Assembly: GCA_903873905.1 (NCBI GenBank)
Contig: CAIQQJ010000136.1
Location: forward strand, 1 to 32,623
DNA length: 32,623 nt
Source: an uncultured Flavobacteriales bacterium
GTDB taxonomy: Bacteria; Bacteroidota; Bacteroidia; Palsa-965
Reading direction: 5' to 3'
A model generated the notes under the pieces. It did not search any database, had not been told where the DNA came from, and saw only the letters and a program-made list of their open reading frames with translations. Position numbers and translations under genes: made by a program. Below are positions 6,260 to 32,623 of the stretch, piece by piece; position 1 is the stretch's first letter; every line of letters begins with the position of its first letter.

Positions 6260-8659
6260 TTATTTCTGAACTGAAATCTTCTGTATTTTCTGTTCACCAT
6301 TAGCAATGATGCGCAAGAAGTACAATCCTGAAGATTGTGTATCAAGACTAATCTGTTTTTCAAAACCGGAATGAACGTTATTCTCAATTGAAGAATAAAC
6401 AACTCGTCCTTGCATATCCGTTACCTCCATTGTAAGATCACCAACGTTTGCATCAACTGCAATGGTGAATGTTCCATTATTAGGATTTGGAAAAATGTTG
6501 ATTCCATTTGACAAGGTTTGATCAACAAGTCCAGTACAAAAATTCACAGTAATTACAACTGTTGCAACTGAAGAACATCCATTTGCATCTGTATAATTGT
6601 AGGTTGCAGTTTGTGCTCCAACTCCTGCTAATGAAGGTGTAAATGAAGATGACGTTACACCAGGTCCGCTCCATGTTCCTGAAATCGGTGTTCCTGTCAA
6701 TGAAATTGCTCCATCGTTAAAACATGCTGTTGTGATAGAAGCCGTTGCTGTAACAACTGGAAATGGATTTACAGCTACCGTAGTTGTTGCTGTATTGGTG
6801 CAATTATTTGCATCAGTTCCTGTTACAGTATAGGTAGCTGTAGAAACAGGTACAAAAGAAATGCCATCCGATACACCACTCGACCATGAATAATATATTG
6901 CACCGCTACCAGTCAAGATTACGGATGCCCCTGTGCAAACTCCTGCCGCCGTTGAATTGGCAACAACTGTTGGAAGTGAATGCAATGTTATTGTAATTGT
7001 AGCAGTATTGACACAACCCGCAGCGCTTGTTCCTGTTACAGTATATGTTAATGTTGAAAGGGGAACAAATGAAACTGCATTGATAACACCACCAGACCAT
7101 GCATAAGTTGCAGCACCGCTTCCTGTAAGCGTTACACTGCTACCAGCACAAACAGAGGTTGTTGTTGCATTGGCAACAACTGTTGGAAGTGGATTCACTG
7201 TTACTGTTGTTGTTGCTGTATTGATACAACCATTAGCACCTGTACCTGTAAGTGTGTATGTTATTGTTGAAACAGGAACAAAAGAAACGGCATTCGTTAC
7301 GCCACCGGACCATGCATAAGTTGTTGCTCCGCTTCCTGTAAGTGTTACACTGCCACCTGCACAAACAGCTGCTGCAGTAGAATTCGCAACAACCGCTGGA
7401 AGTGGATTAACTGTTACCGTTGTTGTTGCCGTATTGGTACAACCATTAGCACCTGTTCCTGTTACTGTGTAGGTCAATGTTGAAAGCGGAACAAAAGAAA
7501 CTGCATTCGTTACACCACCAGACCATGTATACGATGTTGCACCACCACCTGTGAGTATGACGCTTGTTCCAGCGCATACTGTTGCTGCAGTGCTGTTGGC
7601 TGTAACTGCTGGTGATGCATTAATTGAAAGTGAAAGTGTTGTTGGTGAACTTGTACCGCATGGGAATGTTGCAGTAACCGAAATATTTCCAGCAGTACTT
7701 CCAGCAGTAATATTGATTGCTGTTGTTCCTTGCCCTGAATTAATTGTTGACCCCACTGGAACTGTCCATGTATAGGAAGTTGCTCCAACTAAACTTGCGA
7801 TCGAATAATTACCGGAACCATTTGCACAAATTGTTGCACTGCCTGTTATTGCTCCGGGATTACTAACGCCATTGATAGGTGTAATAACCACTTGTCCATT
7901 TCCAGTTTGATATCCTTGTGTATGTGTAACTGCTGTTGCTCCAACATCAGCATAATTACTACCGCCACCACCGCCACCAATAAATCCGCCGCCGCCGCCA
8001 AAATAACCACCACCACCACCGCCACCGCCACCTGACCAACCTTGACCAGAACCACCAAGTCCCAAGGAACCATCAATTGCATTTGGTTGGCTCCAAGTAG
8101 ATCCAATTCCTCCAATACCACCACTGACTTGTGTTCCGCCTGTTCCACCTGGATATCCGTTCCAAGTAGCACCAGTACCTCCAGTTAATGTTCCACCAGC
8201 ACCTCCATTAGCAGTAGGACCAGTAAAGCCACCGCCACCACCACCACCTGCAACAAAAATTCTGTTTGCTAATGCATAAGGAGTAATTCTAATATCTGAT
8301 GCGCCTCCACCAGTTCCAGCTTCTTGTCCTGCACCAGCAATTGTTCCTCCACCTCCATTAAAGCCACCTGTTCCGCAAGTGGCACAATTAAATCCAACCC
8401 CACCTACATAAATATCTAATACTTGACCCGGTGTAACTGCAATAGTCCCCTGAACTCTTCCTCCATTACCACCAACAGATGCATTCACACCATCTCCTCC
8501 TTTTGCACCCATAACATCAACTGTTATGGAGGTTACACAAACAGGAACAGTGTACGTTTGAACCCCTCCGGTATAAGTAAATGTTACTGGCTGTGCAGAA
8601 AGAGAAACACTCGCACTTGCGAGAAATATCACGAAAATATTTTTGTAAAGTTTCTTCAT
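6260..8659 (-). CDS. Paralogue A: glycine-rich, Ig-like repeat T9SS surface protein
   Basis: A 799-residue exported protein. The signal peptide is MKKLYKNIFVIFLASASVSL plus SAQ. Residues about 24-265 form a glycine-rich domain opening FTYTGGVQTYTVP, with GGGASDIR at 118-124 and polyglycine runs near 139-144 and 210-233, closing GNGQVVITP. Residues 266-350 are a PKD-like domain (GATSYTWTVPVGSTINSGQG). Four Ig-like repeats of 71 residues follow (351-634), each with a Cys pair (VCAG and GC.NTA) that could form a disulphide. A variant repeat (635-708, LTGTPISGTWSGPGV) precedes the T9SS type A domain (about 711-799, FPNPNNG at 723). The likely role is a surface adhesin or matrix protein; the ligand is unknown. 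It has its own promoter (8798-8830) and terminator (6215-6240) and is therefore probably monocistronic. Confidence 0.9.
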   Translation of the reverse strand: MKKLYKNIFVIFLASASVSLSAQPVTFTYTGGVQTYTVPVCVTSITVDVMGAKGGDGVNASVGGNGGRVQGTIAVTPGQVLDIYVGGVGFNCATCGTGGFNGGGGTIAGAGQEAGTGGGASDIRITPYALANRIFVAGGGGGGGFTGPTANGGAGGTLTGGTGATWNGYPGGTGGTQVSGGIGGIGSTWSQPNAIDGSLGLGGSGQGWSGGGGGGGGGYFGGGGGFIGGGGGGSNYADVGATAVTHTQGYQTGNGQVVITPINGVSNPGAITGSATICANGSGNYSIASLVGATSYTWTVPVGSTINSGQGTTAINITAGSTAGNISVTATFPCGTSSPTTLSLSINASPAVTANSTAATVCAGTSVILTGGGATSYTWSGGVTNAVSFVPLSTLTYTVTGTGANGCTNTATTTVTVNPLPAVVANSTAAAVCAGGSVTLTGSGATTYAWSGGVTNAVSFVPVSTITYTLTGTGANGCINTATTTVTVNPLPTVVANATTTSVCAGSSVTLTGSGAATYAWSGGVINAVSFVPLSTLTYTVTGTSAAGCVNTATITITLHSLPTVVANSTAAGVCTGASVILTGSGAIYYSWSSGVSDGISFVPVSTATYTVTGTDANNCTNTATTTVAVNPFPVVTATASITTACFNDGAISLTGTPISGTWSGPGVTSSSFTPSLAGVGAQTATYNYTDANGCSSVATVVITVNFCTGLVDQTLSNGINIFPNPNNGTFTIAVDANVGDLTMEVTDMQGRVVYSSIENNVHSGFEKQISLDTQSSGLYFLRIIANGEQKIQKISVQK
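6758..7609 (-). repeat. Four tandem 213-bp Ig-like repeats in gene A
   Basis: Four units of 71 codons in phase with the frame, each ending in a variant of TVTVNPLP. The first three are of the [12 protein letters not shown] type and the last is of the SSGVSDGISFVP type. The DNA is similar enough within the gene and with genes B-D for recombination or assembly collapse to be possible. Confidence 0.85.
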
Positions 8660-8731
8660 TTTTAAATCGTGTTTAGTTTTTATTTTTAATAATAACAGAG
8701 TGTAAAAAAAACCTCAACAGTAATAAACATA

Positions 8732-8764
8732 ATTCTCAAAAACCAACAATTGAATTTTGAGAAT
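8732..8764 (-). promoter_or_regulatory. Hairpin in the leader of gene A
   Basis: A perfect 10-bp inverted repeat, ATTCTCAAAA (8732-8741) and TTTTGAGAAT (8755-8764), with a 13-base loop, in the 5' leader between the promoter at 8798 and the start at 8659. No T tract follows on the minus strand, so it does not look like an attenuator; it could stabilise the mRNA or bind a regulator. The rest of 8660-8961 holds only the promoter and AT-rich sequence. Confidence 0.6.
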
Positions 8765-8797
8765 GGGTCATGAAAATTACAATTAGTATTTGCTCTG

Positions 8798-8830
8798 CTA
8801 ATGTAAATCAAAAAAGGGATAAAATACAAA
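8798..8830 (-). promoter_or_regulatory. Promoter of gene A (Bacteroidota type)
   Basis: On the minus strand, TTTG (8827-8830) and TACATTAG (8798-8805), 21 bases apart. TACATTAG is one mismatch from TAnnTTTG. Genes B and C carry the identical TACATTAG, and B also carries the flanking GGATTTG, so the element is conserved among the paralogues. It predicts a leader of about 130 bases. Confidence 0.65.
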
Positions 8831-8961
8831 TCCAAAAATTTAGGCTTGAGTCATGAGTTGAGAAAATGAAAAAAAAACCTTGATTTTGATGGGTTTCTAA
8901 AGATAATTTGAAAAAATCTTTAAGTGCAAACTTTTGTTAAACAGTTCTTGGTAAAAAAAAA

Positions 8962-8982
8962 CGGGAGACTATTCATCTCCCG
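8962..8982 (-). terminator. Terminator of gene B, shared hairpin type
   Basis: CGGGAGA (8962-8968) and TCTCCCG (8976-8982) with the same TATTC loop core as behind A and C; the innermost pair is mismatched (C/A). A run of nine T follows on the minus strand. Confidence 0.8.
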
Positions 8983-9006
8983 CTTTTCATTTTCAATTAT
9001 TGAAAT

Positions 9007-11640
9007 TTATTTCTGTACAGAAATCTTTTGTGTTTTCTGTTCTCCATTTGCAATGATGTGCAAAAGATATAATCCTGAAGATTGTGTATCAAGACTGATC
9101 TGCTTTACAAATCCTGAATGAACGTTATTATCTACTGAAGAATAAACAACGCGTCCTTGCATATCCGTTACCTCCATTGCAAGATCACCAACGTTTGCAT
9201 CAACTGCAATGGTGAATGTTCCATTGTTCGGATTTGGAAAAATGCTTATTCCATTTGACAAGGTTTGATCAACAACACCTGTACATGCATTCACAGTAAT
9301 AACAACTGCTGCAATCGCGGAACATCCGTTTGCATCTGTGAAACTGTAGCTGGCAGTTTGTGCGCCAACTCCTGCGGTTGCAGGTGAGAAGCTTGATGCT
9401 GTTACACCAGGGCCGCTCCATGTTCCACCGGCAGGTGTTCCTGTCAATGAAATTGAGCCATCTGCCAAACATGCTGTCGTTGTTGTTGCCGTTCCTGTTA
9501 CAGTTGGAAGTGGATTTACAGTTACAGTGGTTGTTGCTGTATTAACACAAGCATTTGTATCTGTTCCTGTTACCATGTAAGTGATTGTTGCACTTGGCAC
9601 AAATGAAACGCCATCAACAACATTGTTATCCCATGCATAGGTTGTTGCTCCACCACCTGTCAATGTTACAGGTGAACCCGCACAAACTGCAGTGGCTGTT
9701 GAATTGGCAACAACAATTGGAAGTGGATTTACCGTTACTGTGGTTGTTGCTGTATTGATACATCCATTTGCATCAGTTCCTGTAACGACGTAAGTATTTG
9801 TTGCAACAGGCACAAAAGAAAGGCCGTCTGATACACTGTTGTCCCATGTATAGGAAACCACTCCGCCGCCTGAAAGTGTTACACTGCTACCTGCACAAAC
9901 TGCTGCTGCAGTACTATTGGCCGTAACCGTCGGAAGTGGATTCACTGTTACTGTTGTTGTTGCTGTATTGATGCAACTATTCGCACCGGTTCCTATTACT
10001 GTGTATGTCAATGTTGAAACTGGCACAAATGAAACCGCATTCGTTACGCCACCTGACCAAATGTAAGTTGATGCGCCACCGCCAGTGAGCGTTACGCTAT
10101 TTCCAGCGCAAACTGCGACTGCTGAAGAATTTGCCGTTACCATCGGAAGTGGATTCACTGTTACTGTGGTTGTTGCCGTATTGGTGCAACCTGCTGCACT
10201 TGTTCCTGTGACAGTGTATGTCAATGTTGAAACTGGAACAAATGAAACTGCGTTCGTTACGCCACCGGACCAAGCATACGTTGATGCTCCGCTTCCTGTA
10301 AGTGTTACACTAGTTCCTGTACAAACTGTGGCAGCTGTTGAATTGGCTACCACTGTTGGAATTGGATTCACTGTTACTGTTGTTGTTGCTGTATTGCTAC
10401 AACCTGCAGAAGTTCCAGTCACTGTGTAAGTTGCTGTTGAAACTGGAACAAATGAAACCGCATTTGTTATTCCACCTGACCAAGAATAAGTTGTTGCTCC
10501 ACTTCCTGTTAATGTCACACTGCTACCGGCACACACTGCAGCTGCTGTTGAATTGGCAACAACTGTTGGTGATGGATTAATGGTAAGTGAAAATGTAGTT
10601 GGTGAACTTGTGCCACATGAGAAAGTTGCTGTAACAGAAATATTTCCTGATGTGCTTCCTGCAGTGATATTAATTGCTGTTGTTCCTTGTCCTGAATTAA
10701 TTGTTGTGCCTGCTGGAACTGTCCATGTATAGGAAGTTGCACCAACCATGCTTGCAATGGAATAACTACCAGAAGCATTTGCACAAATTGTTGAACTGCC
10801 TGTAATGACTCCTGGATTGGGAATACCGCCAACCAAAGTAATTACTACCGAGCCATTGCCAGATTGGAATCCTTGTGTATGTGTTACTGCGGTAACTCCT
10901 ACAGCTGTGTAACTACTACCACCACCGCCAGAGGAATATGTGCCACCGCCACCGCCACCATACCATCCACCACCACCACCAGCACCACCATCGCCATTAT
11001 TACAATTTGGACTTGGTCCAGCTCCGTTTCCACCTACCCCAAAACTTCCACCAGGAACAGGAGTGAAAAAACAACAAGATGCAGTTGGTGTTGCTGCAGC
11101 TCCACCTGCTGATTGCGTTCCACCTGTAGCATAAGTTGCAAGGCAACTATTTCCAGTACTGGCAACATTACCGCCTAAAAGTCCACCTCCAACTCCTGCA
11201 TTACTTGAACTATTAATAGGATGACTTCCACCACCACCACCCGCAACAACCGCACGATTTGCGAGAGCTGTACTGTTCACTCTGATATCAGAAGCACCAC
11301 CACCACCTGCACCAGGATAACTCACTGAACATGTACCAGCAGTTCCTCCTCCATTAAATCCTCCAGCTGAATTACTTATTTCTGGGCCACCTTGTCCGCC
11401 CACATAAATATTTAAGACATCGCCAGGAGTGACAGGCATTGTACATTGAACACGACCACCGAAACCTCCTGTGCCACCACCTTGAGCGCCCTTTGCGTCA
11501 ACAGTAATTGAAGTAACACAAGTTGGAACAGTATAGGTTTGAACCCCACCAGTATAATTAAATGTCAGTGTTTGTGCAGAAAGTGAAATGCTTGCTCCTG
11601 CGAGAAAAAATGTAAAGGTTTTTTTGAAAAGTTTTTTCAT
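9007..11640 (-). CDS. Paralogue B: glycine-rich, Ig-like repeat T9SS surface protein
   Basis: An 877-residue paralogue of gene A, longer mainly because it has five instead of four standard Ig-like repeats. The signal peptide is MKKLFKKTFTFFLAGASISL plus SAQ. The glycine-rich domain (about 24-271) includes GGGGASDIR (112-120), GAGGGGGWYGGGGGG (219-233) and closes GNGSVVITL. The PKD-like domain is 272-358, the Ig-like repeats 359-712 (each with two Cys), the GTWSGPGV variant 713-785 and the T9SS domain 788-877 with FPNPNNG at 801. The last 90 residues are nearly identical to those of A and C. It is exported by Sec and should be sorted by T9SS to the cell surface. Its own promoter (11766-11797), leader hairpin (11700-11730) and terminator (8962-8982) mark it as a separate transcription unit. 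Confidence 0.9.
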   Translation of the reverse strand: MKKLFKKTFTFFLAGASISLSAQTLTFNYTGGVQTYTVPTCVTSITVDAKGAQGGGTGGFGGRVQCTMPVTPGDVLNIYVGGQGGPEISNSAGGFNGGGTAGTCSVSYPGAGGGGASDIRVNSTALANRAVVAGGGGGSHPINSSSNAGVGGGLLGGNVASTGNSCLATYATGGTQSAGGAAATPTASCCFFTPVPGGSFGVGGNGAGPSPNCNNGDGGAGGGGGWYGGGGGGTYSSGGGGSSYTAVGVTAVTHTQGFQSGNGSVVITLVGGIPNPGVITGSSTICANASGSYSIASMVGATSYTWTVPAGTTINSGQGTTAINITAGSTSGNISVTATFSCGTSSPTTFSLTINPSPTVVANSTAAAVCAGSSVTLTGSGATTYSWSGGITNAVSFVPVSTATYTVTGTSAGCSNTATTTVTVNPIPTVVANSTAATVCTGTSVTLTGSGASTYAWSGGVTNAVSFVPVSTLTYTVTGTSAAGCTNTATTTVTVNPLPMVTANSSAVAVCAGNSVTLTGGGASTYIWSGGVTNAVSFVPVSTLTYTVIGTGANSCINTATTTVTVNPLPTVTANSTAAAVCAGSSVTLSGGGVVSYTWDNSVSDGLSFVPVATNTYVVTGTDANGCINTATTTVTVNPLPIVVANSTATAVCAGSPVTLTGGGATTYAWDNNVVDGVSFVPSATITYMVTGTDTNACVNTATTTVTVNPLPTVTGTATTTTACLADGSISLTGTPAGGTWSGPGVTASSFSPATAGVGAQTASYSFTDANGCSAIAAVVITVNACTGVVDQTLSNGISIFPNPNNGTFTIAVDANVGDLAMEVTDMQGRVVYSSVDNNVHSGFVKQISLDTQSSGLYLLHIIANGEQKTQKISVQK
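9505..10566 (-). repeat. Five tandem Ig-like repeats in gene B
   Basis: Five units of 70-71 codons. The first three are of the SGG(V/I)TNAVSFVP type; the last two are of the DNSVSDGLSFVP and DNNVVDGVSFVP type. This is one unit more than in A, C and D, consistent with gain or loss of a whole repeat. Confidence 0.85.
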
Positions 11641-11699
11641 GTTTATTGTGTTTGGTTAAAAAAAATGACGGATAAATGCAAATGCCTGCAACAATAATA

Positions 11700-11730
11700 A
11701 CCTCACATCATGTGTAACACATGATGAGGT
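11700..11730 (-). promoter_or_regulatory. Hairpin in the leader of gene B
   Basis: A near-perfect inverted repeat: ACCTCA, two extra bases CA, TCATGTG (11700-11714), spacer TAA, CACATGATGAGGT (11718-11730). It lies 60 bases upstream of the start, between promoter and gene, in the same place as the unrelated hairpin of gene A. No T run follows. The rest of 11641-11935 holds the promoter and AT-rich sequence without a gene. Confidence 0.65.
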
Positions 11731-11765
11731 AAACAGTGGTTAATAAAATAGGGGTATTTGCTATG

Positions 11766-11797
11766 CTAATGTAAAGCAAAAAAGAGTATTGAACAAA
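11766..11797 (-). promoter_or_regulatory. Promoter of gene B (Bacteroidota type)
   Basis: On the minus strand, TTTG (11794-11797, within GGATTTG) and TACATTAG (11766-11773), 20 bases apart. About 30 bases here are strongly conserved with the region upstream of gene A, although the surrounding leaders have diverged. The predicted leader is about 120 bases. Confidence 0.65.
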
Positions 11798-11935
11798 TCC
11801 AAGCTGCAACAATCGAGTTGAAAAATTTATAAAGCAAAAAATCAAATAGTTTTTTCCCTTTTTTGATAGTAGGTCTAGAGCATAATTTGAGAATATTATT
11901 TCTGTGTTAAATTTTATCTTGATACTTATAAGTAA

Positions 11936-11966
11936 AAAAGCGGGAGATTATTCATCTCCCGCTTTT
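11936..11966. terminator. Terminator of gene C, shared hairpin type
   Basis: A 13-bp perfect stem, AAAAGCGGGAGAT (11936-11948) with ATCTCCCGCTTTT (11954-11966), loop TATTC. It is the longest form of the hairpin found behind A, B and C. Confidence 0.85.
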
Positions 11967-11985
11967 CATTTCTACTTATTGAAAT

Positions 11986-14579
11986 TTATTTCTGTACAGA
12001 AATCTTTTGTGTTTTCTGTTCTCCATTTGCAATGATGTGCAAAAGATACAATCCTGATGCTTGTGTGTCAAGACTGATTTGTTTTACAAATCCTGAGTGA
12101 ACGTTATTCTCCAATGAAGAATAAACAACTCTTCCTTGCATATCCGTTACTACAAGAGTAAGATCACCAAGGTTTGCATCAACTGCAATGGTGAATGTTC
12201 CATTGTTCGGATTTGGAAAAACGTTGATTCCATTTGACAAGGTTTGATCAACAACACCTGTACATATGTTCACAGTAATTACAACTGTGGCAACTCCAGT
12301 GCAACCGTTTGCATCTGTGAAACTGTAGCTGGTTGTTTGTGCTCCAACTCCTGCAGTTGCAGGTGAGAAGGATGATGCTGTTACACCAGGGCCGCTCCAT
12401 GTTCCACCGGCAGGTGTTCCTGTCAATGCAATTGATGCGTCTGATAAACATGCTGTGTTTGTGGTAGCGGTTCCTGTTACAGTTGGGTTTGTATTGATAG
12501 TTACCGTTACTGTATCCGCACCAAAACATCCACTTGCATTTGTCACAGCTACAAAATAGGTTCCTGTTGTTGACACTGAAAGTGTTTGAGCTGTTGTTGC
12601 ATTACTCCACAAGTAAGTTGATCCAACATTTCCTGCATCAAGGATAACCGTACCACCACATTGTGTTACGTTTTGTCCAAGACTTACAATTGGATTTGAA
12701 TTGACAGTAACTGTAGTTGTAGCTGTGTTCGCACAACCATTCGCATCTGTTCCTGTAACCGTGTAGGTAATTGTGGAATTAGGCACGAAAGAAACTCCAT
12801 CCATTACACTATTGGTCCAAGAATAAACAAGTCCGCCACCACCATTAAGTGTTACGCTTCCGCCAGCACAAACTGCAGCAGCTGTGCTGTTGGCAGTGAT
12901 TGTTGGAATTGGATTTACTGTTACTGTTGTCGTTGCTGTATTTGTACAACCATTAGCATCTGTTCCTGTGACAGTATATGTCAATGTTGAAACTGGAATA
13001 AATGAAACTGCATTCGTTACTCCGCCTGACCATATATAAGTTGAAGCCCCGCTTCCTGTAAGTGTAACACTTGCTCCTACACAAACTGCTGCTGCCGTTG
13101 TGTTGGCCGCAATTGTTGGAAGTGGATTTACTGTTACTGTTGTTGTTGCTGTATTGCTGCAACCTGCAGAAGTTCCAGTTACCGTGTAAGTCAATGTTGA
13201 CACAGGAACAAATGAAACTGCATTTGTTACACCACCAGACCATGCATAAGTTGAAGCACCACCACCTGTAAGTGTTACGCTTGTTCCTGCACAAACTGAA
13301 GCTGCGGTACTGTTGGCAGTAACTGTCGGAATAGGATTCACTGTTACTGTTGTTGTTGCTGTATTGCTGCAACCTGCAGAAGTTCCTGTTACTGTGTAAG
13401 TCAATGTTGACATAGGAACAAAAGCAACTGCATTGGTAACACCACCAGACCAAGTATAAGTTGTTGCGCCACTTCCAGATAATGTAACACTGCTACCAGC
13501 ACACACTGCAGCTGCTGTTGAATTGGCAACAACTGTTGGTGCTGGATTAATGGTAAGTGAAAATGTTGTTGGTGAACTGGTGCCACATGGGAATGTTGCA
13601 GTAACAGAAATATTTCCAGAAGTACTTCCTGCTGTGATATTGATTGCTGTTGTTCCTTGTCCTGAATTAATTGTTGTACCTGCTGGAACTGTCCATGTAT
13701 AGGAAGTTGCGCCAGGCATACTAACTATTGAATAATTTCCTGAAGCATTTGCACAAAGTGCTGCGGAACCTGTTATTGCTCCTGGATTTGAAATACCAGA
13801 AACAGGAGTGATTACTACTTGACCATTACCTGTATGAATTCCTGCCGTAGTTGCGGTTGCTGTGCTTCCTGGAAAAGAGATGTAACAAGAACCTCCAGCA
13901 CCAGCAGAAACATATCCACCACCACCACCATAATAACGCCACCGCCACCGCCACCAATGCAATATCCACTGAGAGGTCCAGCATCACCTCCCAAACCTAG
14001 GCTCCCTGCTCCTGCAGAGCTAGGACTGTAAAAACCACCTGCTCCACCAGCTGATTGGGTTCCACCAAATCCCTGTGTGCCACCGATCCAACTTGCTGCT
14101 CCATCGCTTCCTGTCAAGCCACCACCTGCTCCACCTGCTCCGCTTGTCCATCCTTGTCCACCACCACCTCCAGCAACTATGATTCTATTTGAAATGCTAA
14201 CAGAAGTTCGAACATCAGATGCTCCACCTCCACCCCATCCGTCATTTGTACCGCCTCCACATGGAAGTGCATTTACGGCGCCGCCTCCGTTATAACCTCC
14301 ACTGCCAGCACCTGGTCGTGTTGTGGGTTGTCCTCCAACATAAATATAAAGCGTAGAACCACTAATGACAGGAATTGTTGCTGTTGCGCTTCCACCAAGA
14401 CCTCCAACAGGTCCACCTCCTTGAGCGCCATAAGCGTTAATGGTTACAGATGTAACACAAACAGGCACAACATAAGTTTGAACTCCTCCTGTGAAATTGA
14501 AAGTTGTTGGTTGTGCACAAAGTGAAATGCTCACTCCTGCAAGGAAAAGCGAAAAAATGTTTTTGTAGATTTTCTTCAT
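11986..14579 (-). pseudogene. Paralogue C: same family, broken by a one-base deletion
   Basis: The family architecture is complete but split over two frames. From 14579 the first frame gives signal peptide MKKIYKNIFSLFLAGVSISL plus CAQ and about 210 residues of glycine-rich domain (GGGGASDVR, GYCIGGGGGG), then leaves frame at about 13937 and stops at 13815. The other frame continues YYGGGGGYVSAGAGG, GNGQVVITP, the PKD-like domain, four Ig-like repeats, a LGQNVTQCGG-type variant, the GTWSGPGV variant and the T9SS domain, ending at 11986. Loss of one G from GGCGGTTATTAT (plus strand: TAATAACGCC where TAATAACCGCC is expected at 13931-13940) explains the shift exactly. The restored protein would be about 863 residues. 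It may be a pseudogene, a phase-variable state or a sequencing error in a repetitive stretch; the intact sequence on both sides suggests a very recent event or an error. Confidence 0.85.
12691..13536 (-). repeat. Four tandem Ig-like repeats in gene C
   Basis: Units of 70, 70, 71 and 71 codons. The first three are of the SGGVTNAV(S/A)F type, the last of the TNSVMDGVSFVP type. The fourth unit and the LGQN variant after it closely match the corresponding part of gene D. Confidence 0.85.
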
Positions 14580-14609
14580 GATATTGTGTTTTAGTGCGCG
14601 TTGAATTGT

Positions 14610-14617
14610 CTAATGTA
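14610..14617 (-). promoter_or_regulatory. Promoter -7 element of gene C
   Basis: TACATTAG on the minus strand, identical to the -7 element of A and B, within ATTTACATTAG. No clear TTTG lies 19-21 bases upstream, so the promoter may be weaker. The leader would be only about 25 bases, with no hairpin, unlike A and B. Confidence 0.5.
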
Positions 14618-14691
14618 AATGAAAATTATCAAGAATAAGGTTGGCGTCGCAATTAAAAAAGGTATTTAAAAAAATTAATAATTATAAAAAG

Positions 14692-14723
14692 AAAGTCCCC
14701 AGTCAAAAATGACTGAGGACTTT
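14692..14723. terminator. Terminator of gene D
   Basis: AAAGTCC (14692-14698) pairs with GGACTTT (14717-14723) and AGTCA (14701-14705) with TGACT (14710-14714) around an AAAA loop, with a two-base internal mismatch. It differs in sequence from the hairpin shared by A-C. Confidence 0.75.
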
Positions 14724-14744
14724 AATTAACGGGTATGTTGAAAT

Positions 14745-17396
14745 TTATTTCTGCACAGCGATTTTAAAAATTTGTTGTTCCGAACTTGTTGTTAAACGAA
14801 GCATGTAAATTCCATTGGAAACACTTTCCAAAGAAATCGATTTTGTGAATCCTGCATTTACATTATTCTCCAATGAAGAATAAACTAATCGTCCTTGCAT
14901 ATCAACCATTTCAATTTTCACATTGCCAAGACTAGCATTCACTGAAATTGTGAATGTTCCTGCGTTAGGATTTGGAAATACATTGACACCATTTGCAAGT
15001 GATGTTTCAGTCACACCAGTGCAAGCATTAACCTGAATATTAACGTTTGCTGTACCAGCACAATTATTTAAATCTGTAAAAGTGTAAATAAGCGTTTGTG
15101 CGCCAACGCCTGCTCCAATTGGACTGAAGTTAGAACCTGTAACACCTAATCCACTCCATACTCCTCCAATTGGTGTTCCTGTCAATGCAACCGAAGCATC
15201 ATCAACACAGACAACTGAACTTGCAGAAGTTCCTGTTACGGTAGGAAGCACATGGATAGTTATTGTTGTTGTGTCTTCGCCAATGCAACCATTTCCATCG
15301 GTTACATTAACAAAATAAGTTCCAGTTGAATTGACAGTTAAAGTTTGATTGTTACTTGCATCACTCCACAAGTAAGTTGACCCAACATTTCCAGCATCAA
15401 GAATGACTATCCCTCCACATTGAGTTATGTTTTGTCCAAGATTTACAATTGGATTTGAATTAACGGTAACTGTTGTTGTTGCTGTATTAGAACAACCATT
15501 CGCATCTGTTCCTGTAACCGTGTAGGTAATTGTGGAATTTGGTACGAAAGAAACTCCATCCATTACACTATTTGTCCAAGAATAAACACTTGCACCGACA
15601 CCAGTAAGTGTTACGCTATTTCCCAAACAAACTAAAGCTGCCGTACTGTTAATGGTTACGATTGGAAGAGCATTAACAGTTATTGTTGTTGTTGCAGTAT
15701 TGACACAACCACTTGCATCAGTTCCTGTAACCATGTAAGTTGTTGTTGCAGTAGGGGCAAAAGAAACACCATCTGTTACACTGTTATCCCATATATAGGA
15801 AATGGCTCCTCCACCAGTAAGTGTTACACTATTTCCCAAACAAACTGCAGCAGCTGTAGTATTGGCAACTACTGTAGGAATTGGATTGACCGTTACTGTT
15901 GTTGTTGCTGTGTTAGTACAACCTGCGCCACTTGTTCCAGTAACTGTATAAGTCAAAGTAGAAACCGGCACAAAAGAAACTGCATTTGTTACACCACCAG
16001 ACCATGAATAAGTTGTTGCTCCACTTCCTGTAAGTGTTACACTGCTGCCACTACAAACAATTGCTGATGATGAATTGGCTACTACTGTTGGTATTGGATT
16101 GACAGTGACTGTAGTTGTTGCTGTATTGGTACATCCAGTAGCACCTGTTCCTGTAACAGTATAAGTCAAGGTTGAGACTGGTACAAAAGCAACGGCATTC
16201 GTTACACCGCCAGACCAAGCGTAGGTTGAAGCTCCACTTCCTGTTAATGTCACACTATTTCCTGCACATACTGCTGCTGCTGTTGAATTGGCAACCACTG
16301 TTGGAGCTGAATTAATAGAGAGGGCAAATGTTGTTGGTGTGCTTGTACCGCAAGGAAAAGTTGCACTAACTGTAATGTTTCCCGCTGTACTTCCTGCTGT
16401 GATATTAATTGCAGTTGTGCCTTGACCAGAATTAATGGTAGATCCGGCAGGAACTGTCCAGGTATATGAAGTTGCACCAAGCAAACTGGAAATTGAATAA
16501 CTACCAGAAGCATTTGCACAAATTGTTGCGTTTCCTGTTATTGCACCAGGGGCTTGAATACCGTTATTCGGTGTGATTATTACAACACCATCTCCACTTT
16601 TGAATCCTGCTGTATTTACAACACCTGTAGCTGAAACAACCGTGTAATTGCTTCCACCACCACCAGCACCTAATCCGCCGCCGCCGCCGCCATAATATCC
16701 GCCGCCGCCGCCGCCGCCGCCTGTAGGGCCGCCACAACTTGTTGAATTGCTATTCCCGCCTTGACCAAACACACCTGCTTGCGCATCGCAATTACATCCC
16801 CAATCTCCTTTTACACCGCCTGCAGATTGTGTTCCTCCTTGCCCACTTGGATTGCAGCTGCAAATTGATCCTGGCTGTCCAGGATTTGCAACTAAACCAC
16901 CACCGTGTCCACCATCTAAACCATTGCAAGTACATCCATCGGAGCCACCGCCGCCACCACCACCAGCAACAACAATTCTATCGGTCAGAGCATTTCCATT
17001 CAATCGAATATCCGATGCACCACCTCCTCCACCACCACCATAATAAGTATAGTTGGATTCCATCATACCGATTCCGCCACCATTGAATCCACCAGCTGCA
17101 GATGTATTATTATCAGGCGCACCAGCACCTCCAACATAAATGTTTATGACATCACCGGGCGTCACAGTTATTGTAGCTTGAGTTCTTCCACCTAATCCAG
17201 GTAGCCCTTGATAACCACCGCATCCAAGTGCACCAAGGCCACCTTGCGCTCCCTGAACATCCACAGTTAATGAAGTAACACATGGGGGAACAGTATAAGT
17301 TTGAACGCCGCCCGTGTAATTTAATGTCAAGGATTGTGCATCTGCAATTTGATATTGCATGAAAGACAATCCTACTAATAGAGTAAGTTTTTTCAT
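14745..17396 (-). CDS. Paralogue D: glycine-rich, Ig-like repeat T9SS surface protein
   Basis: An 883-residue member of the family, the most diverged of the four. The start is set at 17396, where MKKLTLLVGLSFMQYQIADA gives a signal peptide; an ATG 27 bases upstream would add a polar extension. The glycine-rich domain (about 22-278) has GGGGGGASDIR (121-131), a Cys-rich insert absent from A and B (CTCN, CSCN and CNCD near 155-204) and long Gly runs (225-249). PKD-like 279-365, Ig-like repeats 366-649, a LGQNITQCGG variant, a GVWSGLGV variant and a T9SS domain with FPNPNAG follow. The final 90 residues (TETSLANGVNVFPNPNAG) differ clearly from those of A-C, suggesting D is the older branch. It is divergent from the PKD cargo gene at 17695, with its own promoter (17443-17474) and terminator. 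Confidence 0.9.
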   Translation of the reverse strand: MKKLTLLVGLSFMQYQIADAQSLTLNYTGGVQTYTVPPCVTSLTVDVQGAQGGLGALGCGGYQGLPGLGGRTQATITVTPGDVINIYVGGAGAPDNNTSAAGGFNGGGIGMMESNYTYYGGGGGGGASDIRLNGNALTDRIVVAGGGGGGGSDGCTCNGLDGGHGGGLVANPGQPGSICSCNPSGQGGTQSAGGVKGDWGCNCDAQAGVFGQGGNSNSTSCGGPTGGGGGGGGYYGGGGGGLGAGGGGSNYTVVSATGVVNTAGFKSGDGVVIITPNNGIQAPGAITGNATICANASGSYSISSLLGATSYTWTVPAGSTINSGQGTTAINITAGSTAGNITVSATFPCGTSTPTTFALSINSAPTVVANSTAAAVCAGNSVTLTGSGASTYAWSGGVTNAVAFVPVSTLTYTVTGTGATGCTNTATTTVTVNPIPTVVANSSSAIVCSGSSVTLTGSGATTYSWSGGVTNAVSFVPVSTLTYTVTGTSGAGCTNTATTTVTVNPIPTVVANTTAAAVCLGNSVTLTGGGAISYIWDNSVTDGVSFAPTATTTYMVTGTDASGCVNTATTTITVNALPIVTINSTAALVCLGNSVTLTGVGASVYSWTNSVMDGVSFVPNSTITYTVTGTDANGCSNTATTTVTVNSNPIVNLGQNITQCGGIVILDAGNVGSTYLWSDASNNQTLTVNSTGTYFVNVTDGNGCIGEDTTTITIHVLPTVTGTSASSVVCVDDASVALTGTPIGGVWSGLGVTGSNFSPIGAGVGAQTLIYTFTDLNNCAGTANVNIQVNACTGVTETSLANGVNVFPNPNAGTFTISVNASLGNVKIEMVDMQGRLVYSSLENNVNAGFTKSISLESVSNGIYMLRLTTSSEQQIFKIAVQK
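15450..16301 (-). repeat. Four tandem 213-bp Ig-like repeats in gene D
   Basis: Four units of 71 codons. The first two are of the SGGVTNAV type; the third is DNSVTDGVSFAP and the fourth TNSVMDGVSFVP. Confidence 0.85.
16675..16721 (-). repeat. CCG trinucleotide runs coding for polyglycine
   Basis: Five CCG units plus CC (16675-16691) and seven CCG units plus CC (16699-16721), separated by a short ATAATAT spacer coding for YY. On the coding strand these are GGC codons in gene D. Slippage by whole units would change glycine number without breaking the frame. Confidence 0.85.
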
Positions 17397-17442
17397 TTTT
17401 TCGGGAATAGGGTTTAAGAGCAAATATTTGTGTATGCTGATG

Positions 17443-17474
17443 CAAGAATACCGCTAAGCCTTATATTTTCCAAA
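17443..17474 (-). promoter_or_regulatory. Promoter of gene D (Bacteroidota type)
   Basis: On the minus strand, TTTG (17471-17474) and TATTCTTG (17443-17450) exactly 20 bases apart; the second is one mismatch from TAnnTTTG. The predicted leader is about 40 bases. Confidence 0.6.
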
Positions 17475-30522: not shown

Positions 30523-32277
30523 ATGAAGAATATTTATTTTCTGATTTTATTTTTTACAATTGCATCTTTTTCTTTCTCTCAGAATTTATCACAAGCTCGG
30601 AAAACCAATTGGTCATTTGCCGGAATCAATCACGTTGTAAATCAACCGAGCAATCAAATAAACATTATGAGTTTTGGTGCTGATGCTACTGGAGTAAATC
30701 CAAGCAACTTGGCAATGCAATCAGCCATATCAAGTTTAAATGGAAATGCTGGCGTGATAAATTTACCTGCAGGAACATTTCTTTTTACCAGTTCCATCAT
30801 TTTACCCGACAGTGTTATTTTGCGTGGCGCAGGTTCAACATCTACCCTGCTTCAATTTAATTTAAATGGAACAGGCGATTTGATTCGGATTGCAGGAAGT
30901 GCTCAATTAAAAAATAGTCGTTTAATTTCTTCCTCTATAAAAGATAGTTCATTTGTTGAAATTACAAATCCCTCTAACTTTTCCATTGGAGATTATTTCC
31001 GCATTTATCAAAATGATTCTTCCATTGTGACATCTAGTTGGGCATACAATTCGGTAGGTCAAATAATGCATATCACTTCTATTGTTGGAAATCGCGTTTA
31101 TTTCAATGGTGTGCTACGGAAAAATTATTTGCTTTCTGATTCATGCAAATTTGAAAAGTGCAATATGAAAAAGTCCATCGGAATTGAGTGCATGAAAATT
31201 GAACGATTGGATGCTTCTGTAGGACAAACCACAAATATTGCTTTCGACTATGCTGCTGATTGTTGGGTTTCGGGTATTGAGAGTTACAATTGCAACTTCG
31301 GACATTTGGTTTTTTCCAAGTGTACCAACTGCTACGTTTACGGAAATTATTTTCACCATGCTTTTGCCTATGGTGGAAATGGACAAGGATATGGTGTTGT
31401 TTTGCAGTATACCAGCGGAGAGTGTTTGGTAGAAAACAACGTCTTCAATCACCTACGACATTCAATGCTCTTGCAAGCGGGCGCAAATGGGAATGTGTGT
31501 GCTTTCAATTATTCATTGGACACTTATTGGACAAGTTTCCCGAGTAATTCAGCAGGTGATATTGTACTTCATGGAAACTATATTTTCATGAATTTATTTG
31601 AAGAAAATATTGTTCAGAATATTGTCATTGATGCTTCACATGGGATCAATGGTCCTTACAATACTTTTTTTAGAAATCGCGCTGAATTGTATGGCATTGT
31701 TATGAGTACAAATCCTTCCAGTGATAATCAAAACTATATTGGAAATGAAATCACCAACTCTTCCTTCCCTTATGGTCAATATTCATTGACAGGCATTGGC
31801 AATTTTGAATTCGGCAACAACAAACAAGGCACATGCATTCCATCCAACACAAGTGCTATTACCGACATCAGTTATTATTACACGGGCACACCTTGGTTTT
31901 TGACATCCAACTATTCCTATCCTACCATCGGATATAGCAATTCATTAAATGCAAATTCAATACCAGCAAAGGATCGATATTCCAGTGGTAACTTTACACT
32001 TTGCAGCAACATTCTCACAGAAGCAACAAACACAAAACAAAATAAATCCATTGCGCTTTTTCCAAATCCAGCAAACGATGTGCTTTTCGTTCAATCGGAT
32101 TATGGTTCTGCTCTCACCTTCTCCATTTATAATTCCGAAGGAAAATTAGTTGACAGTGGCGATTTATTGCACGAATCCAAAATAGATTTGACTGCACTTA
32201 CAAATGGAATTTACTTTATCACATTTTCGAAATCAACACAAGCTGTGTCGAGCCAAAAATTTATTTTGAACAGATAA
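30523..32277 (+). CDS. Pectate-lyase-like beta-helix protein with T9SS sorting domain
   Basis: A 584-residue exported protein with signal peptide MKNIYFLILFFTIASFSFSQ. Residues about 48-105 (IMSFGADATGVNPSNLAMQS, then GVINLPAGTFLFTSSIILPD and VILRGAG) are the classical opening of the pectate lyase superfamily (Pectate_lyase_3-like) right-handed beta-helix. The following repeats of 'n...n.y...v..' such as CTNCYVYGNYFHHAF, and GECLVENNVFNHLRHSMLLQ, fit successive coils. Residues about 509-584 (LFPNPANDVLFVQ to GIYFITF) are a T9SS type A domain. It is probably a surface polysaccharide-binding or -degrading protein; catalytic residues cannot be assigned. The ATG lies one base after the metG stop, so the two are likely co-transcribed, an unusual partner for a synthetase. 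No strong terminator was found behind it. Confidence 0.85.
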   Translation: MKNIYFLILFFTIASFSFSQNLSQARKTNWSFAGINHVVNQPSNQINIMSFGADATGVNPSNLAMQSAISSLNGNAGVINLPAGTFLFTSSIILPDSVILRGAGSTSTLLQFNLNGTGDLIRIAGSAQLKNSRLISSSIKDSSFVEITNPSNFSIGDYFRIYQNDSSIVTSSWAYNSVGQIMHITSIVGNRVYFNGVLRKNYLLSDSCKFEKCNMKKSIGIECMKIERLDASVGQTTNIAFDYAADCWVSGIESYNCNFGHLVFSKCTNCYVYGNYFHHAFAYGGNGQGYGVVLQYTSGECLVENNVFNHLRHSMLLQAGANGNVCAFNYSLDTYWTSFPSNSAGDIVLHGNYIFMNLFEENIVQNIVIDASHGINGPYNTFFRNRAELYGIVMSTNPSSDNQNYIGNEITNSSFPYGQYSLTGIGNFEFGNNKQGTCIPSNTSAITDISYYYTGTPWFLTSNYSYPTIGYSNSLNANSIPAKDRYSSGNFTLCSNILTEATNTKQNKSIALFPNPANDVLFVQSDYGSALTFSIYNSEGKLVDSGDLLHESKIDLTALTNGIYFITFSKSTQAVSSQKFILNR

Positions 32278-32366
32278 ATATTGTTTTTTTCACTGTTGTT
32301 GCAAGCATCACAATTTCAATTGTCCCGACTTTAACCGATTAATAAACTTGTTAGCGTTTCATTTAG

Positions 32367-32374
32367 TAAATTTG
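32367..32374 (+). promoter_or_regulatory. Possible promoter -7 element of tRNA-Arg
   Basis: TAAATTTG, full match to TAnnTTTG, 82 bases upstream of the tRNA. A TTG lies 16 bases before it. The region 32278-32456 contains no gene. Confidence 0.4.
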
Positions 32375-32456
32375 CAATAATGAAATTCTCTTTGATCAAA
32401 CTATCTTCACTGAAACAATGTTTGACAAAATGAATTTTAGTTCTTTCAATGATCGA

Positions 32457-32528
32457 GGTTTCGTAGTTCAATGGATAGAATAGAAGTTTCCTAAACTTTT
32501 GATGCAGGTTCGATTCCTGCCGAGACCA
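32457..32528 (+). tRNA. tRNA-Arg (anticodon CCU)
   Basis: A complete cloverleaf. Acceptor GGTTTCG (32457-32463) pairs with CGAGACC (32521-32527) with one G-U pair. The D stem is GTTC/GAAT, the anticodon stem GAAGT/ACTTT, and the anticodon loop TTCCTAA places CCT at 32490-32492, reading AGG. The T arm is GCAGG, TTCGATT, CCTGC. The discriminator is A; CCA is not encoded (CAAA follows), so the end must be added by the CCA enzyme. Confidence 0.95.
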
Positions 32529-32532
32529 CAAA
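32515..32532 (+). repeat. tRNA 3'-end repeat, first copy (in the tRNA)
   Basis: The 18-base sequence TCCTGCCGAGACCACAAA at the 3' end of tRNA-Arg recurs exactly at 32606-32623, 91 bases later. A direct repeat of a tRNA 3' end is the usual mark of an integration (att) site or of a tRNA-tail-containing repeat. Confidence 0.85.
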
Positions 32533-32548
32533 TGAATAATTATTAACT

Positions 32549-32602
32549 ATTCCTGCAGGAATCGTGTTCTGTCGACGACAGAAGCATCACGAGCTTTGCT
32601 CG
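32549..32602. repeat. Cluster of palindromes between the tRNA-tail copies
   Basis: A perfect 14-bp palindrome, ATTCCTGCAGGAAT (32549-32562), then TTCTGTCG, A, CGACAGAA (32567-32583) inside an outer TCGTG/CACGA pair (32562-32566 and 32588-32592), then CGAGC, TTT, GCTCG (32590-32602). The density of short inverted repeats is unlike any other part of the window. Confidence 0.8.
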
Positions 32603-32605
32603 CTC

Positions 32606-32623
32606 TCCTGCCGAGACCACAAA
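32606..32623 (+). repeat. tRNA 3'-end repeat, second copy (at window end)
   Basis: An exact copy of the last 14 bases of tRNA-Arg plus CAAA, without the rest of the tRNA. The window stops at the last base of the repeat. Confidence 0.85.

Follow-up and report, generated by a model that had tools for sequence, protein, structure and literature searches.

The window analysed here is the entire contig C136 of genome G000 (32,623 bases). The repeat search showed that the tail of the tRNA-Arg gene near its right end, TCCTGCCGAGACCACAAA, recurs as the last bases of the contig (18/18 identical, 91 bp offset). This confirmed the first-pass annotation, which had described a tRNA-Arg 3′ end repeated 91 bases downstream. 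The tail repeat extends 3 bp beyond the ARAGORN end of the gene and was therefore copied from DNA, not from mature tRNA. The 18-mer occurred four times in the G000 genome and its reversed control did not occur, so the repeat is not due to chance. A second complete tRNA-Arg gene, which the annotation had considered as another outcome, was ruled out, as ARAGORN found one tRNA in the window and none around the further copies described below. The features of the locus are listed in Table 1.

Table 1. Features at the right end of the window (contig C136)
Feature	Position	Strand	Evidence
tRNA-Arg (anticodon CCT)	32457..32529	+	ARAGORN; Rfam RF00005, 67.7 bits
18-bp tail, first copy: T-stem 3′ strand, acceptor 3′ strand, bases beyond	32515..32532	+	repeat search
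Spacer behind tRNA-Arg	32533..32554	+	sequence
Copy 0 of the conserved unit (66 bp), with GCAGGA/TCCTGC as outer stem, two hairpins, and tail	32555..32620	+	two more copies at 97–99%; fold
Left arm GCAGGAATCG, the reverse complement of CGATTCCTGC (T-loop/T-stem 3′ strand) of the local tRNA-Arg	32555..32564	+	shuffle test (2/500 as good); own-versus-other tRNA table
Hairpin 1 (TG TTCTGTC GAC GACAGAA g CA)	32565..32586	+	fold
Last 55 bases of C136, the same as in copy A on C57	32569..32623	+	sequence comparison
Box ATCACGA	32586..32592	+	same sequence in copy 0, copy A (both G000), and the G002 Arg unit
Hairpin 2 (CGAGC TTT GCTCG)	32590..32602	+	fold
tRNA tail, second copy; C136 stops within it	32606..32623	+	repeat search

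The repeated element is a unit of 66–76 bp comprising a left arm, a hairpin, the ATCACGA box, a second hairpin, and the tRNA tail. The palindromes claimed in the first-pass annotation were found: ATTCCTGCAGGAAT lies at 32549–32562, and folding confirmed the CTGTC-GAC-GACAG and CGAGC-TTT-GCTCG hairpins. The fold strength of the window hairpins had a z value of −2.57, and 2 of 200 shuffles were equally stable. In the fold of the whole unit, GCAGGA pairs with TCCTGC and encloses the two hairpins. No known RNA family was found for the unit in the Rfam search of the window. The exact core and box-plus-tail patterns gave no match in the viral contigs searched.

The absence of further copies, also named beforehand as a possible outcome, was not observed. 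Query 32440–32623 matched contig C57 of the same genome at 94349–94435 (copy A; 95%, 87 bases) and 95875–95943 (copy B; 97%, 69 bases), both on the minus strand. A 76-base unit query matched the same two places at 99% over 76 bases and 97% over 69 bases. The window copy and copies A and B share GCAGGAATCGTG, the CTGTC-GAC-GACAG hairpin, the box, the second hairpin (GCTTTGC core), and CTCTCCTGCCGAGACCACAAA, and the sequences flanking this shared part differ among them. Copies 0 and A carry the palindrome ATTCCTGCAGGAAT but copy B lacks it, which places the start of the conserved part at GCAGGAATCG. The box reads ATCACGT in copy B. The assembly probably halted at the end of C136 because its last 55 bases equal copy A, presumably as an assembler k-mer effect.

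The placement of the copies was derived from synteny. Contig C52 of the congener G001 carries the C57 genes (69.8 to 85 kb), tRNA-Arg, and the metG of C136 (28290–30518) with the adjoining carboxypeptidase gene in one run. It is therefore very probable that C57 and C136 adjoin in G000 with their right ends facing each other. The order in G000 is very probably metG, a secreted protein gene, tRNA-Arg, copy 0, a gap, copy B, a PD40 (TolB-like) gene on the opposite strand, copy A, a Fic gene, and a DEAD-box helicase gene. Copies A and B have the same orientation as tRNA-Arg, and all copies probably form one array behind it, with a gene separating two of them. The three copies at this tRNA locus are placed by synteny, with an assembly gap between copies 0 and B. 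Copies B and A are 1,526 bp apart with the opposite-strand gene between them, and copies 0 and B are separated by at least about 340 bp plus the unassembled gap. The proposal of a 91-bp unit continuing past the window is thus supported as to the further copies, but not as to the 91-bp spacing.

The terminator scan of 32200–32623 showed no terminator-like hairpin between tRNA-Arg and the end of C136. A terminator-like hairpin with a TTTT run starts 3 bases after the tail of copy A; it is weak taken alone, since 16 of 200 shuffles fold equally well. A further terminator-like pattern lies on the array strand within the B–A segment. The first terminator-like hairpin judged to belong to tRNA-Arg, in its direction, comes after the last copy (A). 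Two other G000 tRNA genes, Leu(TAA) and Gly(GCC), have terminator-like T-run hairpins directly behind them. The terminator pattern fits units inserted between tRNA-Arg and its terminator.

Several other features were observed in the surrounding DNA. Positions 15955–16150 of the C57 locus L007, beside copy B, resemble 2243–2354 and 5726–5927 of L046 (G000:C159) as a repeat (75–83% identical), which, judged by eye on the opposite strand, has the look of the terminal part of a broken gene for a four-helix bundle. This likeness of C159 to the end of C57 is unrelated to the unit. Repeated CCGCACATCATGCGG palindromes, operator-like in look, precede a Fic/DUF4172 gene (L007 14230–14330). L007 10698–11624 (+) encodes a 309-aa protein with a weak match to NPP1 (necrosis-inducing protein; 22.3 bits, cut-off 21). 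In the window itself, four large adjacent ORFs (6263–17453, −) match one protein region of G002 at 40–46% identity and form a paralogue array, and a glycine-rich ORF (ALK_LTK_GRD) lies among them.

Units in relatives were found in the congener G002. The 76-base unit query matched 2 of 148 genomes, G000 itself and G131, the latter being a chance look-alike inside apparent coding sequence. The pattern CTCCTRCCGAGACCAC matched 3 of 395 genomes (G000, G002, and G063), that in G063 (L049) being a chance look-alike with a tail match only. The Muribaculaceae match in L055, the viral contigs L105/L106 (tail-like match only), and plasmid and phage matches covering 23–34% of the query were also chance look-alikes. 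In G002, a diverged unit lies about 100 bp behind its own tRNA-Arg(CCT) and consists of GTAACGGGAATCGAG, a hairpin, ATCACGA, a longer hairpin, and TTCTCCTACCGAGACCAC. A model built from the three G000 copies (R1) scored this unit at 21.7 bits (E 0.0022 over 131 kb; E 0.074 against the whole G002 genome). Despite the modest E-value, we judged it convincing because it is placed behind the same tRNA. Three of 20 base pairs were changed on both sides between the species, a number that 21 of 500 shuffles reach, and these changes give modest support to the unit fold.

A second model (R2), for which the G002 Arg unit was combined with copies A and B in a model-based alignment, was searched against 395 genomes and revealed a second G002 locus, C10:9466–9552 (E 1.8 × 10−4), behind tRNA-Lys(TTT). 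Six of the 395 genomes had any match at E ≤ 0.3; the other four carried 26-base matches near E 0.15–0.25, as long as a tRNA T-arm. Behind tRNA-Lys(TTT), copies of the Lys tail CCCAGCGGGATCAC stand at 116 and 240 bp, and each closes a unit made up of a left arm (GGGATTCG), hairpin 1, a box (ATCTCAC or ATCACAA), and hairpin 2 with an inner GTCCACMGGAC. Terminator hairpins with T-runs adjoin the Lys tails and separate the Lys units. The relatives G001, G003, G005, and G006 have tRNA-Arg with an empty site behind it.

In 5/5 units compared, the left arm matches the T-loop/T-stem 3′ strand of the local tRNA as its reverse complement (8–11 nt). The match was 10 nt in G000, 11 nt in the G002 Arg unit, and 9 and 8 nt in the two Lys units, with 2, 1, 1, and 20 of 500 shuffles as good, respectively. 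In an own-versus-other test with five tRNAs, left arms fitted their own tRNA best in 5/5 units and tails in 4/5, a table of few tRNAs in which left arm and tail depend on each other wherever the two are paired. The exception was the G002 Arg tail, which fits the G000 tRNA better than its own (10 vs. 4 nt). The two Lys left arms fit E. coli Tyr nearly equally (8 vs. own 9, and 7 vs. own 8). Simple direct copying of the left arm was rejected, as in the G000, G002 Arg, and Lys units the arm matches over a greater length in inverted than in direct orientation. The left parts behind G002 tRNA-Met and in G018 are direct partial tRNA copies, and that of G010 tRNA-Thr showed neither orientation beyond chance. 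One unit type standing behind different tRNAs with ends fitted to each is unusual.

Other tRNA-tail repeats were surveyed in 71 distinct tRNA contexts from loci fetched for other reasons, 40 of them with the full 1,000 bp downstream. The 14-mer tails (≤1 mismatch) recurred downstream of the window tRNA-Arg, G002 tRNA-Lys and tRNA-Met, G018 tRNA-Arg, and G010 tRNA-Thr. Further 14-mer matches in L055 and L099 fall among neighbouring full tRNA genes. By the same test, tail repeats were found for 2 of 9 tRNAs in G002 (954 kb) and 1 of 4 in G000 (615 kb), in purposely sampled DNA. The G018 and G002 Met cases differ in make, being direct partial tRNA 3′ copies with a palindrome in the T-loop. L048 (G018:C2) 8784–8899 holds a tRNA-Arg 3′ part copy with a 40-nt palindromic insert (CCTGCCTACCGGCAGGCAGG core), and the tail recurs 88 bp downstream of the tRNA. 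L133 (G002:C27) holds, in the 260 bp following tRNA-Met(CAT), a tRNA-Met 3′ half with TCCCGATAGCTATCGGGA in the T-loop and then a second tail; homologous terminators stand behind tRNA-Met and behind the last tail.

The tyrT repeats of E. coli are usually treated as an oddity of a single operon. In the tyrV/rttR region of E. coli K-12, which was fetched for comparison, the 19-nt tRNA-Tyr tail recurs at +160, +338, and +516 (period 178 bp). Each unit contains GGGGAAGGAT, the reverse complement of ATCCTTCCCC in the tRNA, followed by AAGGTTCG, hairpins, and the tail, and the first unit folds with a 10-bp outer stem. The window resembles E. coli rtT in having a tail of about 18–19 nt repeated behind the tRNA in the same orientation, the inverted T-arm 3′ strand, hairpins, and a closing outer stem. 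However, the window unit is unrelated in sequence. RF00391 detected the three E. coli units (positive control) and gave no match in sequence or structure in the window or in the tested G002 and G018 loci. The spacing is strictly 178 bp in E. coli but irregular in G000, with a gene between copies. The E. coli tail includes CCA. Unlike E. coli rtT, the core of the G000 family recurs behind tRNA-Lys in a congener. Passages of PMC4986893 report that RtT RNAs are released from tRNA operon transcripts and affect the stringent response. A literature search of open-licence full texts led to work on rtT and on the ssrA islands, but among the texts listed there was no earlier description of tRNA-tail repeats in Bacteroidota.

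We consider it reasonably probable that the window feature is a tRNA-tail repeat array of the tyrT/rtT kind, with the layout of E. coli rtT but outside the RF00391 family. As placed by synteny, at least three units in tRNA orientation probably stand behind tRNA-Arg(CCT). Each unit may be seen as a T-arm mimic, in which a complementary left arm and a loop region filled with two hairpins would be followed by the copied tail, that is, the T-stem 3′ strand, the acceptor 3′ strand, and a few flanking bases from the tRNA gene. We speculate that recombination at the T-arm palindrome, or template switching there, duplicated the tRNA 3′ end and that the structured core was placed in the T-loop at duplication. 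The units would be transcribed by read-through as a tRNA trailer, and their RNA would fold into hairpins ending in an unpaired acceptor strand. Cutting during tRNA processing, as reported for E. coli rtT, might then release the unit RNA, and by this analogy the window RNA may be excised like E. coli RtT RNA. Several points speak against the rtT-like reading: the irregular spacing, the opposite-strand gene and the terminator-like pattern between copies B and A, the missing RF00391 match, the misfit of the G002 Arg tail to its own tRNA, and just three both-side pair changes. In G002, terminator hairpins follow the tRNA ahead of the units, and transcription would have to read through them.

More tentatively, the units may belong to a family of small elements with a shared core (hairpin, ATCAC box, hairpin) and both ends tailored to the preceding tRNA gene, the right end being its tail and the left end complementing its T-loop/T-stem. 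The ends could be copied from the target at insertion or selected for pairing with the tRNA precursor. If the ends are tailored in this way, each unit would be either an RNA regulator specific to its tRNA or a mobile element templated by its target. The agreement of both ends with the local tRNA opens two ideas to testing, copying from the target and RNA pairing with the tRNA precursor. That the layout stands behind tRNA-Arg and tRNA-Lys, and in degenerate form behind tRNA-Met, in Bacteroidia MAGs suggests that it arises recurrently at tRNA 3′ ends. Such repeats are not necessarily marks of genomic islands, and they are able to break short-read assemblies.

The main rival to the rtT-like reading, which we regard as rather unlikely, is an accretion of attachment sites. 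In this reading, several small integrative elements, most of which would since have lost their integrases, inserted serially at the 3′ end of tRNA-Arg, and each left behind a tail copy with the element's own right-end sequence before it. The direct repeats of the tRNA 3′ end would be those of an att site, the gene between copies B and A could be cargo, the terminator-like hairpin is shifted to the far side of copy A, and the unit is missing from most relatives. Passages of PMC3146451 describe tandem ssrA islands of Dehalococcoides in which 20-bp repeats of the ssrA 3′ end form the boundaries; a conserved 15-bp motif directly precedes each repeat, and the insertion position lies within the T-loop. 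The units resemble these islands in the downstream repeats of an RNA-gene 3′ end, the conserved sequence before each repeat, and the T-loop insertion (same passages of PMC3146451). However, many of the islands carry a serine-recombinase integration module according to these passages (PMC3146451), whereas none was found near the tRNA-Arg units. No recombinase was found among the C136/C57 proteins scanned with Pfam, and the four tyrosine recombinases of the genome are all on contigs other than C136 and C57 as assembled. The 91–129 bp units in G000 and G002 are too small for genes, an inverted left arm is unexpected, and one core family ending in different tRNA tails is not predicted by a single integrase specificity. 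The att-site or remnant interpretation of the first-pass annotation agrees with the direct tail repeat and keeps some probability, while the lack of a tyrosine recombinase on C136/C57 as assembled and the Lys-tailed relatives count against it.

We find it improbable that a miniature mobile element, a REP/BIME-like palindrome, inserted into the T-loops of duplicated tRNA 3′ ends. The insert of the G018 tRNA-Arg copy follows GGTTC, and TCCCGATAGCTATCGGGA in the G002 tRNA-Met half follows GTTCGA, this palindrome occurring twice in 787 kb against about 0 expected. Short intergenic hairpins are common to the units and REP/BIME palindromes, and passages of PMC2965389 assign rtT-like elements to BIMEs. 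Unlike REP/BIME sequences, the G000 hairpin cores were found only inside tRNA-tail units (3 and 2 times in 350 kb sampled) and were not dispersed there, and there is no linked transposase. An integron-like cassette array, whose primary site would be the tRNA tail and whose folded recombination site would be the unit, is very improbable. The units share one orientation and one conserved end with differing DNA between them, and a folded site with an inverted and a direct arm would suit such an array. The attC sites of integrons have imperfect inverted arms around variable hairpins and a GTTRRRY/RYYYAAC core pair. The window unit likewise has inverted arms enclosing hairpins, but copy 0, as read from the sequence, has no GTTRRRY core, there is no linked integrase, and the array has just three units. 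The integron-integrase-like recombinase on contig C103 adjoins a different repeat.

L079 (G000:C103) 6942–8215 encodes this 386-aa tyrosine recombinase, which is near integron integrases (TIGR02249, 202.7 bits, below the cut-off of 265). It is followed by a structured repeat of about 100 bp ending in AGTTAGTGGCA and then by an ORF. The recombinase was rejected as the array enzyme: its relatives occur in G003 (55%) and G002 (58%), of which G002 alone has the unit, and another kind of repeat follows it in G000 and G002; no link to the array is claimed. The G002 relative (L083, 58% identical) has a similar end behind it, AGTTAGCGGTA. The C103 recombinase and its repeat are possibly a separate integron-like system.
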